Of a stretch of 64,000 nt of DNA, positions 5,203-28,880 are shown one piece after another. The translations under genes and the position numbers were made by a program. This DNA is from Spinacia oleracea (lineage: Eukaryota; Streptophyta; Magnoliopsida; Caryophyllales; Amaranthaceae), in NCBI RefSeq assembly GCF_020520425.1, contig NC_079490.1, forward strand, positions 5,518,001 through 5,582,000, written 5' to 3'. How positions within the stretch are numbered: position 1 is the first letter of the stretch; each line of letters opens with the position of its first letter. Below the pieces are notes generated by a model. That model was given only the letters and a program-made list of their open reading frames with translations, ran no database searches and was not told the origin of the DNA.

Positions 5203-5827
5203 TGGCATACTATATGTGAACGACACTCTTTGGTTTAATTTATTTTTTTAGAAGAAATTGATTCATCAAAATCTTGAAATAAAGATAATGTTGCAAGATC
5301 GTGAACACATGATTGGTTTTACATGTATATATGCTTACATGACCTCTATGAGTATCTCTTTTTCGCAAGGAGAGAAAATGCTGTCAGGAATGTTGACGTG
5401 AAAAAAGGCTCTTGTCTCAATTAATTTATTTTCCTATCTGGTCAAAAAAGAATCCTTTCTGCTTCTATTTCACTTGACATATTGTACCAAAAATGTCTTA
5501 TTTGATGCCAATTCCGGATATCGCAAAAATCAAATCTGCTTGATTCAGCCGACTACCAATCCTTTAGACTCTAAGAAGCAAATATTAAAAATACTACTGT
5601 GTTATTTTTTCATAATTTTTATATTCATTTGTTATCATTTTGCAAGGAGATCTAAATGGATACAGAGGTATTTGGCAAGAAACTTCCTAGAAAATCATAA
5701 TTTCCAAGTATTGGAGCATTGTTTCCTTCTCTAGCTTATACCATGCCTTTGCTTTGTATTACAGTAATCTTTCTTTCCTTACATTCTTACATTTTCCAAA
5801 ATTGGAATATTTCTTTTCCTTATGACC
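5203..5827 (+). other. Intergenic between DUF1218 and MADS genes
   Basis: Holds the 3'UTR of the DUF1218 gene and the presumed promoter of the MADS locus. The open frame at 5474-5734 has no family resemblance and no splice support. No element was recognised. Confidence 0.5.
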
Positions 5828-7122
5828 ATGGTTAGAAAAATAAAGCAGTTGAGGATCATAGAGGATACTGTATTTAGCAGGCAATTATCTTTTGCGAAGC
5901 GACGAAATGGACTACTAACAAAGAATTAGAGTTACACTTGGTGTGTGGTGTTGATTCTGTATTTATAGCCTTCTCTCCTTCTGGTCGCTCAGCTATCTTT
6001 GTGGTGACAAAAGGTATTCTTTGTCGACTTATATGTGTTGCTTATTTTTTCTTTTTCATGGTCTCTGAACACGCATGTATCCGTACATGTAAATACACTG
6101 CTTACACACTTGGAGGATGTGCTGATTTTTTCTTCTAACTTCTAAAACCTCCTTTGCTTGTTCAGGGCTGGTGATGTTATAAGTCGTTTTGTTGCATTGC
6201 CAGAACATTTCCGACAGTTGTAAGAGTCTCATATCATTTTTCTTTTGGTGTGAAGTTAGTACGCTGTAGAATATAGTAAGAATGGTGGCAATTCATTTTC
6301 ATATTGGATTTCTTGTACAAATGCTTAAAAGAAAATCTAGTAGCAATTAGCAAGCAATGCAGTCTTGTATTAATTGGGTGGTCTCACATTTTATGTTGCA
6401 TAAATTAACTGTTTTGTAGCCATTTACCAGATTGGGAGGTAATGCCATTTGTGTTAGATTTTGACATTTATACTACAAGGGCGGTGAGTTTAGCAGTCGC
6501 TATGCAGGCTGCATAGCGACTTGCGACTTTAAATATATACTCGGATACACATGTATTTGTATTCTTTTCTTTTGGGGTTGTTTATCTTTTTTATATCGGT
6601 TTTAGGGGTTTTTAAGATAGAAGGAAAAATATGAAAGTCAAGGTTGTTATTCACTTTATTTTGTTGCAGTTGCAGCTTTTACTTGATATAGTCAACCAGC
6701 TTAGAGAACCAACAAAGGACCATATCAGAGTGATCGGTAAACCTTAGCTACATTAATCCTTTTCCTCTCTTCATCATTTTATATGCCAATATATTAGAAG
6801 AAACAACTTCACAAAAGGGCCACGGTTCACCTAGATTAATCCTTTTTTAACTTCTCTTCTTCTGCGTGTATTAATCCGATGAATGTGATTTGAATTTTGT
6901 GCTCTTATGATGTTTTACAAGAAAAAAAAACACATGATAGTATTCTGGTTTTTATATACATCTAGTATTTTTTTTTTTTTTTCCTATCTATGCTTGTTAT
7001 ACTATACATAGATTTTAAGAACACTTGAATTGTTATAGATGCCATGCACTATTGTACTATTGTCAACAGAATGTTCCATTTTTGCTAATGGTTACTAGGT
7101 TAAGAAGAGTTTTTTTTTTGTT

Positions 7123-20765: not shown

Positions 20766-21932
20766 TCTAATCTAATATACATATATAAAGGAGGCATATT
20801 TGCTGAAAGATTAGAGTGCCACCTAGGATTACTAATGGTTTCGGCCAATGAAAAATAAGATTTCTAATTTCTTTTTGAATTAAAAAATCAAGTATCACGT
20901 AGATAATTAATTAGGTGCCACGTAGATATTTTAATTAATTAATTATTAATATATACAACTCCATCGAAAATCAAACACTCTAATAATTAAAAAATAACCG
21001 ATTGCCACGTAGATAATTAATTAGGTGCCACGTAGATATTTTAATTAATTAATTAATTACTAGCTATATACAACTCCATTTAAAATCAAACACTCTAATA
21101 ATTAAAAAATAAATCTAAAATAAAATTCATCCAAAATCAAACAATAAAATAAATAAAATTCAATTTAAAATCAAACATTAATCCAATATTAGAGCGCCAG
21201 GTAGAAAAATCTAATGGTTTCGGCCAATGGAGGCATATTTGCTGAAATATTAGAGCGCCACCTAGGATTACTAATGGTTTCGGCCAATGAAAAATAAGAT
21301 TTCCAATTTCTTTTTGAATTAAAAAAATCAAGTGCCTGGTAGATAATTAATTAGGTGCCATGTAGATATTTTAATTAATTAATTACTAATATATACAACT
21401 CCATCGCAAATCAATCACTCTAATAATTAAAAAATAATCGATTTCCACCAGATAATTAATTAGGTGCCACGTAGATATTTTGATTAATTAATTAATTACT
21501 AATATATACAACTCCATCTAAAATCAAACACTCTAATAATTAAAATTAACCTAAAATAAAATTCATCCAAAATCAAACAGTAATCTAAACTAAAATAAAT
21601 AAAATTCAATTTAAAATCAAACATCGTAGAAAAATCTAATGGTTTCGGCCAATGAAAAATAAGATTTCAAATTTAATTTTGAATAAAAGAAGTCGAGTGC
21701 CACGTAAAGAAATGATTAAGTGTCACGTAGATATTATTAATTAATTATTAATATTACGCATATATAATTTTATTCAAAAACAAATACTCTCATAATAAAA
21801 AGAATCTAAAATGAAATTCAATGCAAAATCAAAAACTAATCTAATCTAATATATAAAAGTGGTATATACATAGGATTTTTATTTAATATAACAATTTAAT
21901 AAAATCCGTGCATCGCACTGGCTAAAATCTAG
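20766..21932 (+). mobile_element. Non-autonomous Helitron
   Basis: It starts TCTAATCTAATATAC and ends with a small hairpin (CCGTGCATCGCACTGG) followed by CTAAAATCTAG, the 5'-TC and 3'-CTRR hallmarks of plant Helitrons. It sits between A and T without target duplication, as the family does. The interior carries no protein. A block beginning GGAGGCATATTTGCTGAAA and containing GGTTTCGGCCAATG recurs at about 20790 and 21226, with a truncated third copy near 21640, so the element grew by internal duplication. A second TCTAATCTAATATA at about 21839 could be the start of a shorter nested copy sharing the same 3' end. Confidence 0.75.
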
Positions 21933-23880: not shown

Positions 23881-24207
23881 GAGTAGATAATAGACTATCA
23901 ACCAAAACAGATCACTGACCTTTAGGCTTGGCAACAACTAAGCAAACAGAAGACTGGCACACACCCAAGACAGATCTTGCATATATCAATCAAGAAACCA
24001 AAAGAATCACATAGGAAAAGGAGAAAAAGGACAGGGAACAAAGAACCCTTAAAATTTGTGCAAAATAACTTGTTTAAAGAACTTTAACAAAACAAACTAA
24101 TAGAGCATACCTCAGGCTATTAATTAAGAAATGCAGGTATAAATAAGCCCTCGAACTAATTAAGACACCACAAGTATCTACACCATATCCTCCGGAAAAT
24201 GTTTGGT

Positions 24208-24362
24208 TGACCCTAAGGGTTGGCAACCCCTAAGATACATATAATATAAAATAATATATAAGCATAATTAATTGGAGAGAGAAAGTGTTGTATGTAAAGT
24301 TTTAATGCATTTGTAACCAATCAAAATTCAATATTGAAAGGGTTACCAACCCTTAGGGTCAC
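24208..24362. mobile_element. Short TIR element just 3' of the nucleoredoxin-like locus
   Basis: The left end TGACCCTAAGGGTTGGCAAC is mirrored by GTTACCAACCCTTAGGGTCA on the right with a single mismatch, over an AT-rich centre. Total length about 155 bp. No clear target duplication is seen. The ends themselves contain a small palindrome (CCCTAAGGG). Confidence 0.75.
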
Positions 24363-24644
24363 TCTATCATTGTCCATATCCTCCATATGCACGAGGCAAC
24401 TCTCAAGTCGAGTAATGACGTCCCTACGTAAACGTACTACACTCAAATGGAATACCATCACGACTTTCAGCTTTAAATAGATTTTGAGTATCAACTGAGC
24501 AAACATGGCCATCGATTCCAAATTCAACGAGGGTATCAAATGGAGTGACCCGTGGTGGGAATAACTTTTTCTGCAGAGATTTTGAATGATTAGTTTGGAA
24601 CGGACGTACCAACCAAGGAATATCAGACAGTGCTGGGTCAATAG

Positions 24645-25479
24645 TAGAGCTGTTAAAACAGTTATTCGAATCGGGTCCGGGTCTGGTCATCTCGGGTCTC
24701 GGATCATGAACTGGTCGGGTCGTGTCGGGTCATTTTATTACCGGATGCAGGTCGGGTTCAGGTCGGGTTGAAAATTTGTCGGGTCATATCGGGTTATTTT
24801 TCCATTTCCGTTTAGGTCGGGTTCGGTTCGAGTTCGGGTTCGGATCCGGTCTTTTTCTAGCCAGGTACAATTATGGGTTCGGGTCTTAACGAGTCGGGTC
24901 AAGTTCGGATCGGATAATTACCTGGTCGGTTAAACTTCAAGTCGGGTTAAGACCGGGTACGATAGCTATCAGGATTAGTCAAGTTTTTTAACCTTATAAT
25001 TAACTTTTATAAATTTGGTTAAATTTGGTTTAACGTTTTCTACTTGTTCTAGATTAAGTAATTATAAAAAAATATATTAACTTGATTTAAGTTATTATTT
25101 AGTTAGGTCAATGAAAAATCGGGTTGTCAACAGGTCGCGTAAATTCAGGTAACGGGTTGTCACGAATTGAGTCAATAACAGGTTTCATCGGATTATAATT
25201 GGTTTCGGGTTGACATCGGGTCGGGTGTTGAATCGGGTTCGGGTCATTTTTCGGTCAGGTAAGTTGACTCATTTTTGTTATCGGTTATATATCGGTCGGG
25301 TATCAGGTTCGGGTTCGGATCATGCATTAACGGGTCGAAATCGGTCGTCGGTTTCAACGGGTTGGCTACGGTCAGGTTACGGGTTTCCTATTTTAACAAA
25401 ATTTCGGATCTCGAATCGGATCCGAGTCCATAAAAATACAGGTCGGTTTCTAGGGTCGGGTCAGTTTTTGACATCTCTA
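24645..25479. mobile_element. hAT-like non-autonomous element filled with GGGTCGG repeats
   Basis: Ends are TAGAGCTGTTAAAA and TTTTTGACATCTCTA, imperfect inverted repeats. An exact 8-bp duplication GTCAATAG lies on both sides (24637-24644 and 25480-25487), the hallmark of hAT insertion. The 835-bp interior is largely degenerate GGGTCGGGTTCGGGT-type sequence. It interrupts the nucleoredoxin-like coding frame exactly between Asp and Pro codons once the duplication is removed. Confidence 0.88.
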
Positions 25480-25722
25480 GTCAATAGCCTCGTTATCCTC
25501 ATTGTTTCGTTGAACATAAACCACTTGAATATTAGGATTCTCGCGATACAATTTCTGTAGATGTTGAATAATTAGCAAATTGTCTTTGGAACCAAAATAT
25601 AGAAGTATGTTCCTGGGTTGGAGTGAACCCACAGTGATCATCCGGGTATTAGCACCTCTAAGAACATAGTCACATAACTCAGAAGTGAGCAATGACTCCA
25701 AAGTGAGTTCCTCAACAACTTA

Positions 25723-26113
25723 GGGTGTGTTCGGCGGTAGCGTTTGAGGTAGCGAGTAGCGTTTTGACCTAGTCAAGACGCTACTTGTAAAATTTGTAAG
25801 TGTTTGGTAAAGTAGCGATTTAGGTAGCGGTTAGCGGTTGAGGTAGCAGTTGGGTAGCTTTTGTCAAACATTAAAATTAGTAGCGTTTAAGGTAGCGGGT
25901 AGCGCTTGACAAATTTATACGGAAATAATAGTCTTGCTTTTATTTTTATTTTTAATATCAACCGCTAATTTTACCGAACACTCATATTAGTTACCGCTAC
26001 TTTGATAGCTAACCGTTACCCGCTACTATTCACCGTTACTCGCTACTTTAACCGCTACCCGCTACTCAACCGCTAACCGCTACCCGCTACCGCTAATTTT
26101 GCCGAACAGGGCC
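25723..26113. mobile_element. PIF/Harbinger-type MITE with GTAGCGG-rich interior
   Basis: Left end GGGTGTGTTCGGCGGTAGCG and right end CTAATTTTGCCGAACAGGGCC are inverted relatives. TTA flanks both sides (25720-25722 and 26114-26116), the TWA target typical of PIF/Harbinger. Most of the 391 bp is inverted arrays of GTAGCGG/CCGCTAC words, so the single strand would fold strongly. It is inserted in the nucleoredoxin-like coding region. Confidence 0.87.
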
Positions 26114-26889
26114 TTAACATGATTACTGATAAGGCCCTCTATAGTGAACGGATATCCATCAGATCCGAATTCCTTCAAGATCTCTCGTCCATAAAGATCC
26201 ACGTATTCGTTACAGGGTCCCACGATAACTAGGCAATCAGGAACATATCCGCAGATTCTCCAAATCTTGCGGCATATGGAGTTGTTGAAGGGCATTCGCC
26301 ACCAAGATATCTTGTTTTCTTCCATAAACTTATCCACTTTCCCCTGGTAAACCTCTGAGGGAAAACAGTGAGCAAAGAGTATGTAAACCACTACAATCTC
26401 GAATTCTTTCTGAGTACCTCTGCATTGTTCATAGACCTCGTTAAGGGTGTGAATGAAACTACCTTCAGCGATACAGCAATTCCCTTCAGCCCACAAGTAC
26501 AACCCGACAACCTTGTTCTCATTCAGTTTCGAAAAACACAACTCCTCCTCGTTCCCACCTTCTTGATGATTATGATTATTAATCTTATGTACAACAGTAG
26601 TAGATGCAATGCTCGTCTTCAGAAATTTCTGAAGCTCGGTTTTACTCATGAATTCCAATTCATTACGATGACAGAACGGAAAGGAGTCAGCTCCTTGATC
26701 CACTGCAAAATCTGGATAAACACGGAGCAAAGCAATGCTCGAACGATCCACAATGAAACATTCACAAGGAAGTCTAACATCAAGATAACAGCATATATAG
26801 TCAAGACGATTAGGGTCATCAAAGGGTACTACAAGGCAAGAAGGGGGAAATGCAGACAAGAAATTGGAAAAGAGGCAATTCATAATTAT

Positions 26890-27432
26890 TAGACCTGTCA
26901 AAAATCGACCCGACTCGAAAACCGACCCGAATCCGACCCGAAAAAACTGGGTCCTGAACAAGATTTTGTAACCCATAACCCGTTTTTATCCGAACCCGAG
27001 CAACCCGAAAAGTAACGGGTCAAAACCCGACCGAAGCCGTTTTGGACCCGGCCTATTGAAAATTATTGTATTTATAGTAATAAATAAGATTATGAGAAAA
27101 TTTAAGAAAAATAAACGAGTTTGTTTTATTATTGTTGTGTGTAATATGATTTTAATTTGAATTATAAGCCATTTTATGGTTGAATTTGATTAAATATAAA
27201 CGTGTGTAGGAAAATTTGTTAATTTTTACCCATATTTTGTATATTTATCACCTAAATTAGTGAAAATATAATGTCCATTTTAAAATCTCTCAACCTGTTG
27301 GGTCGACCCAAACCCGAAAGTTCTGGGTCTTGAACAAGCATTTGTGAACCCGAACCCAAAAATGACCAATCCGATTCAACCCAAACCCGAAAATAATTTT
27401 TTACAACCCGACCCAACCGACCCTTTTGACTA
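26890..27432. mobile_element. GC-rich non-autonomous element, CCCGACCC type
   Basis: It begins TAGACCTGTCAAAAATCG and ends CCCTTTTGACTA, an imperfect inverted repeat matching the hAT element at 24645. The outer parts are CCCGACCCGAA repeats and the centre is AT-rich. ATTCAT occurs at both borders (26878-26883 and 27435-27440) and corresponds to the Met-Asn codons of the interrupted frame, but a clean 8-bp duplication is not visible, so this copy is probably older or its borders have shifted. Confidence 0.7.
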
Positions 27433-27893
27433 GTATTCATCTTCAAAACCAACACAATCTGAAAATCATCATAAAAATCAAACATCTCATAACAGATATT
27501 TGCAATTGACTGAAAAGTAGATGCATCTTCTTGTAGATGATGAATTGGGACATGAAAACAGCAAATCATAACATATTTCCCTTGAAATGTATCCTTGTTC
27601 AATTCAATTCGATCATCATTGATACGGAAAAGGTAATTACTCTGAAACTTAAAGGATAACAACGATATAACATCAAAGGGTTCACCAATTTTAATAACAG
27701 GAGATTCAGAAATCATCTTCTTTATATCATCACTGTATTCTGGGTTTTCACTTTCACGAATAAAATTTAAGAATCTGTTGTAGTTCTCACCTTTCCTTGC
27801 TAATCGGCACAAATTCTCGTCGGGCACCTTTAATGGCCAAAAATCATCCACACAACAAGAATCTAACAATTTTCTGATATTTCCTGAATACAT

Positions 27894-28880
27894 CCTACAA
27901 AACTTGCAAAATTAAACCTAATCACAATAATAATATTCAACAATACAAGTTTCTTTCAAAATTAAAACCCCAAACTTACAAATTATCATCTTAGGTTTGT
28001 TTCTAATCGTACTTTTGTTATTTGATTGACCCAATCCACCAAACCAACCCGAACCCAACCCAATAATAAAGGGTTGGGTTAAGATTTTCTACCGTTTAAT
28101 TAAATGGATTAATCCTACCCAACCCGTTTAATTAAATGGGTTGGGTCAGGTTAAAATTTTCAACCCGAAAACAATCCGACTAATCCGTTTAAGTTCAAAC
28201 AAGTATGTAACATTGATCGGTAGGATATTATTTGAAAGATTTTACTTCAACATTGAATAATTATTTGACATTTTGATCATGTCAAATACATTAAAAACTG
28301 ATTTATCACCTCTACTTGTATTTTTTTGTGTTCGCAATTAATTGACATCATTAAAACGCTATAAAAGGAGCGAGGAGAAGGAAAATACTATTTGATATGA
28401 AGTATTGCGTACGTAATTAGTAGAGTGGTAACTCGATCATATACTAATACATAGGATACAAAAGAACTCCATGAATTTCAATCAGATCTTATCCTAACTT
28501 TTGATAAATTTTGTAACCCGGTTATCTTTTACGGAGTTTTTATTTTGATTTAACAATTTAAAAGAATTTGTTCATCGCACGGCTAAAATCTAGTTACTAT
28601 ATACCATTTTAAAATGTTTATCCATCAAAAAAAATTATAATATAAAAGTTAATCAAAACATGTTAATAGTTATCAATAACTGGGTAAAAGTTACCAAAAT
28701 CTACAATAAATTTATCTTACACCTAATGCGTGCAAGTCCTTTTGGAAAAAGTTTGACAGTGATTGTAATTGTTTAAATAAGTGAATATGTGCATATTTCA
28801 CGACAAATTCAACCCTAACTTATCAATTGTTAGAAACTCAGGAATCACAAGGGGGCTACAAACAACTCCCTCATTTTTAA
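27894..28880. other. Intergenic, upstream of the nucleoredoxin-like gene
   Basis: Contains another CCCAACCCGAA-rich patch at 28030-28190 related to the GC-rich elements. At 28545-28595 is a Helitron-type 3' end (TTCATCGCACGGCTAAAATC then TAG), similar to the end of the Helitron at 21932; its 5' end was not located. No gene is supported. Confidence 0.55.

Follow-up and report, generated by a model that had tools for sequence, protein, structure and literature searches.

In the spinach genome, a dispersed duplicate of a nucleoredoxin-like gene that lacks a CxxC motif very likely spent most of the time since its separation constrained by purifying selection before decaying, probably late, into a pseudogene. 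Two hAT-type elements, a Harbinger-type one and a MULE-type one, all non-autonomous and unrelated to one another, lie in sequence that is coding in the paralog; a fifth repeat occupies the leader, and three frameshifts are present. Going by point estimates, hAT-B, one of the hAT-type elements, would be the earliest arrival and the MULE-type element the latest or close to it, with constraint ending within the span of the insertions, nearer its recent end. If one insertion is to be singled out as an irreversible hit, the strongest candidate is the second hAT-type element, hAT-A, since it is flanked by no good splice pair that would restore the frame; it may have been preceded by other lesions.

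Results

Identity of the gene copy

The window, the whole 64-kb stretch of DNA analysed here, spans positions 5,518,001-5,582,000 of contig C4; the genome comprises 894,210,420 bases in 242 contigs. The matches listed, for gene relatives and element families alike, are confined to contigs C1 to C6. The gene copy has its start ATG near 27893 and is interrupted repeatedly (Table 1). Its piece at 26083-26985 matches Pfam Thioredoxin_8 with E=1.7e-5 and 25.5 bits, under the curated cutoff of 27 and thus under the score that would place it among the nucleoredoxins, while the paralog protein P0001 returned no Pfam family at E<=1. Nucleoredoxins are marked by a WCxxC-type redox site. P0001 contains no CxxC motif, and the four window pieces read show just one, a CKFC upstream of the start codon. 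Judged from these matches, "nucleoredoxin-like" seems a fair label for the gene copy, and a working redox site in this family copy is not indicated. PDB sequence searches gave a best E of 0.049 with P0001 and 0.062 with a profile, and a fold-based identity was rejected, the predicted model of the window's 255-residue piece having a mean pLDDT of only 40.6. A literature search for nucleoredoxin and spinach returned, among the matches listed, no title on a nucleoredoxin-like family in spinach, and the locus itself was likewise absent from the matches listed in the literature searched.

A remoter relative, L079 (2753-4666), shares 39% protein identity with the L075 protein and contains two in-frame TAA codons; it is apparently another decayed family member. 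Two of its pieces match Thioredoxin_8 weakly (E=0.02 and 0.063), and one piece carries overlapping CNAC and CWWC motifs. Window positions 20790-21852 give several overlapping matches to one L079 stretch (5731-6045), as from a repeated block.

Table 1 Positions of the gene copy, its insertions and lesions in the window, and of its paralogs elsewhere in the genome
Feature	Position	Strand	Basis or remark
Nucleoredoxin-like (Thioredoxin_8-like) gene copy, interrupted	24385..27893	-	colinear with the L075 650-codon stop-to-stop ORF
Coding remains of the gene copy	27431-27893, 26117-26889, 25488-25722, 24385-24644	-	
MULE-type MITE, 182 bp	24194..24375	.	TIR, 9-bp TSD, empty site in L075
+4 insertion, then premature TAG at 24424-24426	24432..24441	-	alignment to paralog
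hAT-A, 835-bp non-autonomous hAT-type element	24645..25479	.	TSD, family, empty site in L075
-1 frameshift near Harbinger junction	25709..25714	-	alignment to paralog
PIF/Harbinger-type MITE, 391 bp	25723..26113	.	TIR GGGTGTGTTCGGC / GGCCCTGTTCGGC, TSD TTA at 25720-25722 and 26114-26116
+1 frameshift near hAT-B junction	26875..26881	-	alignment to paralog
Remaining hAT-B TSD copy ATAATTAT	26882..26889	.	comparison with L075 and L076
hAT-B, 541-bp non-autonomous hAT-type element	26890..27430	.	family end, TIR, empty site in L075/L076
Inverted 42-47-bp segment matching the paralogs' leader	27983..28029	.	comparison with paralogs
Fifth repeat, 5' leader/promoter position	28025..28291	.	443 candidates, 40 scored
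L075	C4:9.71 Mb; L075:3180-5021		among closest relatives found in same genome; 650-codon stop-to-stop ORF
L076	C3:5.81 Mb; L076:2560-4416		paralog with one frameshift and an early TGA just ahead of the L075 stop
L077	C4:0.84 Mb		paralog fragment

Insertions and empty sites

An earlier, sequence-only reading had placed three small transposons inside the coding sequence of this gene rather than in introns, and the insert-free paralogs bear out both the places and their coding nature. L075 and L076 align on either flank of the hAT-A, Harbinger and hAT-B sites with no insert between (bracketing L075 coordinates 4717/4723, 4460/4463 and 3684/3688, respectively), and the Harbinger empty site is present in L075, L076 and L077. 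Each of the three inserts terminates where its element family terminates (40 copies scored per family, the window's own included), a coincidence that cannot be due to chance.

Members of the hAT superfamily have an 8-bp TSD and a short TIR beginning TAG/CAG. Both were found for hAT-A and, the TSD through other copies of its family, for hAT-B; by these ends the two are taken to be hAT-type, non-autonomous elements. hAT-A, with the terminal inverted repeat TAGAGCTGTYAAAA, lies between exact copies of GTCAATAG (24637-24644 and 25480-25487), as the first reading had it; its family yielded 893 first-look candidates, 40 of them scored, and exact 8-bp TSDs in seven of the eight other copies printed, of 19 aligned. 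hAT-B has the TIR TAGACCTGTCAAAA, intact on the left and without its outer bases on the right, and belongs to a family with 1427 first-look candidates (40 scored) and exact 8-bp TSDs in every one of the eight other copies printed, of 19 aligned. From comparison of hAT-B with the paralogs and with other family copies, we infer that its second TSD copy and the outer TIR bases were probably lost in a single 18-bp deletion at 27430/27431. This third element had been described as GC-rich, a label we reject, its GC content of 35.7% being close to the window's 35.4% (hAT-A, 42.4%; Harbinger element, 43.0%). A further copy of the hAT-B family, 85% identical to the window copy, lies upstream of the paralog L076 (L076:4878-5376).

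PIF/Harbinger-type MITEs have a 3-bp TSD, typically TWA. The window element shows a 3-bp TSD and a TIR starting GG, and the TTA duplication reported in the earlier reading is indeed found on either flank (Table 1). Its family comprises 979 first-look candidates, 40 of which were scored, with an exact 3-bp duplication in seven of the eight other copies printed, of 19 aligned (TTA/TAA in five, ATA in two).

Two elements, a MULE-type MITE and the leader repeat, are absent from the earlier reading. MITEs of the MULE type have a 9-11-bp TSD and a longer TIR; the window element combines a 36-bp imperfect TIR (83% complementary) with an exact 9-bp TSD, ATATCCTCC, at 24185-24193 and 24376-24384. This family gave 226 candidates, of which 40 were scored, 39 besides the window copy at 96-98% identity, and two of three fetched copies have exact 9-bp duplications. 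The insertion site is still coding in L075, about 11 codons ahead of that frame's stop, and lies downstream of the window copy's own premature stop. At the other end of the gene, homology with the L075 and L076 leader stops at the fifth repeat, whose best other copy is 88% identical, gaps included. The leader common to L075 and L076 is conserved at 88% over 181 bp; its remainder was sought in the 64-kb window and was not found there beyond the inverted 42-47-bp block.

Reading frame and disablements

The frame had been said to continue across the hAT-A site and the third site once the inserts were set aside. This holds at hAT-A, where the paralog frame, counting a single copy of the TSD, runs on to the premature stop, and fails at hAT-B because of the one extra base at 26875-26881; the 1-bp deletion at 25709-25714 likewise breaks the frame across the Harbinger site. 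An additional +1 lies at 24177-24183, behind the premature stop. Alignment with L075 gives 20 indel rows, 13 of which are multiples of three; in the remainder, a neighbouring 1 and 8 sum to nine, a 5-base row is the hAT-B junction (3 bases under the boundary at 27430), and four are single events. The joined gene sequence used for frame, indels, quartet and rooting was short of two gene bases at this junction, and for dating hAT-B was taken as 26890-27432, two bases beyond the family end at 27430.

The count of disablements is three (the +1 near hAT-B, the -1 and the +4); it disregards the inserts, the deletion at the hAT-B junction and the +1 that follows the premature stop. Two of the three frameshifts lie within 14 bp of insert junctions, a proximity with P ~0.007 that was computed post hoc and is weak. 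Nonsense substitutions in the window copy number zero in 537 codons of the L075 frame.

Selection on the window copy and its paralogs

Selection was estimated from the 537 codons ungapped in the window copy, L075 and L076, of which 536 were fitted, the L076 TGA codon being dropped. In a free-ratio maximum-likelihood model, the branch of the window copy has an omega of 0.547 (p=0.0027 against 1; 2dlnL stays below 3.84 for ~0.38-0.81). The L075 value of 1.41 does not differ significantly from 1 (p=0.27), and that of L076 is 2.10 (p=0.0016 against 1; 0.0004 without codons near gaps); equality of the window and L075 values has p=0.011. Excluding codons near gaps left 430 (429 used) and gave 0.51, 1.27 and 2.81 for the window, L075 and L076. 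Parsimony, which leaves out 79 codons where all three copies differ, gave synonymous/nonsynonymous counts of 34/51 for the window copy, 12.3/39.7 for L075 and 15.7/100.3 for L076. Thus 34 of the 85 window changes are synonymous, against 20% expected (p=3e-5), and the segment downstream of hAT-A holds four synonymous and no nonsynonymous changes in 72 codons (p=0.02 against the rest, as one of four segments). The window copy's branch was under clear constraint, and that dN/dS is lower in this insert-bearing copy than in either L075 or L076 speaks against a long death; since the insert-free paralogs show higher omega than the window copy, omega is a weak clock here.

Positive selection in L076 is doubtful: p rises to 0.10 when changes are compared by a simple count test, and the copy itself carries a frameshift as well as an early TGA. 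The dN/dS values at or above 1 in L075 and L076 could reflect relaxed or diversifying evolution in a thioredoxin-like family.

The window copy and L075 pair on 19 quartet sites, against 7 and 7 for the alternatives, of 636. Because rooting the family tree on the remoter relatives L078 and L079 gave 41% support, and because the window copy carries an excess of synonymous changes over L075 (34 vs 12, p=0.002), part of the window "branch" may predate the window/L075 split and belong to other copies.

Ages of the insertions and the end of constraint

Terminal branches, in substitutions per site, were 0.065 for hAT-B (22-sequence tree), 0.042 for hAT-A (23) and 0.030 for the Harbinger element (19), and K measured against a consensus built from 19 further copies was 0.090, 0.049 and 0.031, respectively. 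Private changes number 25/543, 20/826 and 9/391, with overlapping intervals. Across its 182 bases the MULE-type copy shows 3, 4 and 4 substitutions relative to three fetched copies, plus a 4-base gap relative to the last; its point age is ~0.016. Insert divergence had been proposed as a way to order the events. It does yield an order by point estimates, hAT-B, hAT-A, Harbinger, MULE, which is not statistically settled, the intervals overlapping; the ages also depend on subfamily history, as the two hAT-B values (0.065 from the tree, 0.090 from the consensus) illustrate.

For the end of constraint, our clock used a nonsense share of 4.3%, a ratio of indels to substitutions in the elements of 8 to 97, and an assumed 75% of indels frameshifting. 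The three disablements then correspond to K ~0.018 (0.004-0.052) since constraint ended. At the raw hAT-B age of 0.065, 10.9 disablements would be expected against the three counted (P(<=3)=0.005); the raw ages of hAT-A, Harbinger and MULE predict 7.1 (P 0.075), 5.0 (0.26) and 2.8 (0.70). The probability of zero nonsense substitutions is 0.011 at K 0.065 and 0.002 at 0.09. C>T and G>A account for 13/25 of the private changes in hAT-B, 9/20 in hAT-A and 3/9 in the Harbinger element, compared with 23/85 of the gene changes, and discounting the C>T excess lowers the hAT-B age to 0.043, with 7.2 disablements expected (P=0.074).

The hAT-B insertion may therefore be older than the end of constraint, and since the discount removes significance, the data do not compel this order. 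The sequence-only reading held that the inserts record when selection ended and that all three must be younger than the gene's death. The first part holds in part, the branch having been constrained and the end of constraint being datable; the second is contradicted by the raw age of hAT-B and allowed after the discount.

The same expectations bear on a different course of events, in which the gene died first through loss of its promoter or leader, by a small inversion and the repeat at 27983-28291, and the coding inserts were passive passengers, as the first option of the earlier reading has it. The paralog leader is indeed not found in the window save for one inverted block, with the repeat sitting in that place, and four elements within one short gene suggest weak constraint on insertion. 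We nevertheless regard this course as rather unlikely: a leader loss as old as hAT-B would predict the same 10.9 disablements, or 7.2 when C>T-corrected, in place of three; the repeat's best copies are 88% identical.

Candidate splicing of the inserts

In a GT-AG scan with splice-site weights not derived from spinach, 23 of 64 pairs around hAT-B, counting in the +1, connect its flanks in the paralog frame and leave no stop; chance alone would give about one in three. The top-scoring acceptor tried there is TTTTTGACAG, within the hAT-B TIR; donors score poorly, the best at 1.3. Only 4 of 114 pairs restore the frame around the Harbinger element, with poor scores, and 1 of 36 around hAT-A, with very poor scores. 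These poor frame-restoring pairs make a full-length product from the window copy seem unlikely, whereas tolerance of hAT-B alone through splicing appears possible.

hAT-B might on this basis have been tolerated as a new intron, with the TIR acceptor TTTTTGACAG as its 3' splice site, until later lesions killed the gene. Such splicing would account for constraint persisting after hAT-B, it would use the best acceptor of those tried with many frame-keeping pairs to choose from, and maize Ds1 is a known precedent. We consider it improbable, the number of frame-joining pairs being near chance, the donors poor and the weights not spinach-derived; it would also be superfluous if the age of hAT-B is inflated by C>T decay. 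An elaboration has hAT-B becoming a working intron with the +1 keeping the frame, followed by a -1 repair near the Harbinger element, until hAT-A finally ended the gene. This is very improbable; if true, TE-derived introns and compensating frameshifts would have arisen stepwise before hAT-A ended the gene. That the inserts are ordinary ancestral introns resembling elements, for which nothing but position within the gene was found, has practically no chance of being right and is rejected within this genome, given the exact TSDs, the large dispersed families and two paralogs uninterrupted at all three sites; introns at identical positions, which the earlier reading had named as the finding that would overturn it, are thus not present in L075 and L076.

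Discussion

Our preferred reading remains a duplicate long held by purifying selection and lost late, with hAT-A as the best candidate for the irreversible hit. The either/or of the sequence-only reading, that the inserts followed the death of the gene or one of them caused it, is plausible, and is not forced, as it leaves out insert splicing and lesions unnoticed earlier, namely the frameshifts and the lost leader. That inserts must postdate death is not automatic: the oldest insert may have been tolerated. With four roughly datable insertions, three frameshifts and usable paralogs, this one short gene offers a compact test case of insertion against loss of selection.

The window locus is an ordinary duplicate-gene pseudogene with several TE insertions, of a known kind and unusually readable. 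Duplicate-gene pseudogenes with several MITE or other TE insertions are a known kind in plant genomes. Those and the window copy share non-autonomous TIR elements in former exons together with frameshifts, and the mechanism is the same; the window copy differs in having four TE families that can be compared with the end of constraint.

Maize Ds1 reportedly acts as an intron, in work attributed to Dennis in 1988, Wessler in 1991 and Giroux in 1994 and cited in PMC3260210. Ds1 and hAT-B are alike as hAT elements in an exon, with possible splice sites in the element ends; splicing is reported for Ds1, whereas here it is only a candidate for hAT-B and unlikely for hAT-A.

Introners are described as TIR elements with TSDs that are able to supply a splice site, and that study reports none in land plants (PMC9860276). 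The window inserts resemble them in having TIRs and TSDs and in the potential to supply splice sites; introners are spliced, TE-derived introns, whereas the window inserts are at most candidates for splicing. A last comparison is with Mariam, a small element that interrupts exon 6 in a wheat gene and creates a stop there (PMC6824096). Both cases place a small element in coding sequence; Mariam is a single element without TIRs, whereas the window copy has several TIR elements.
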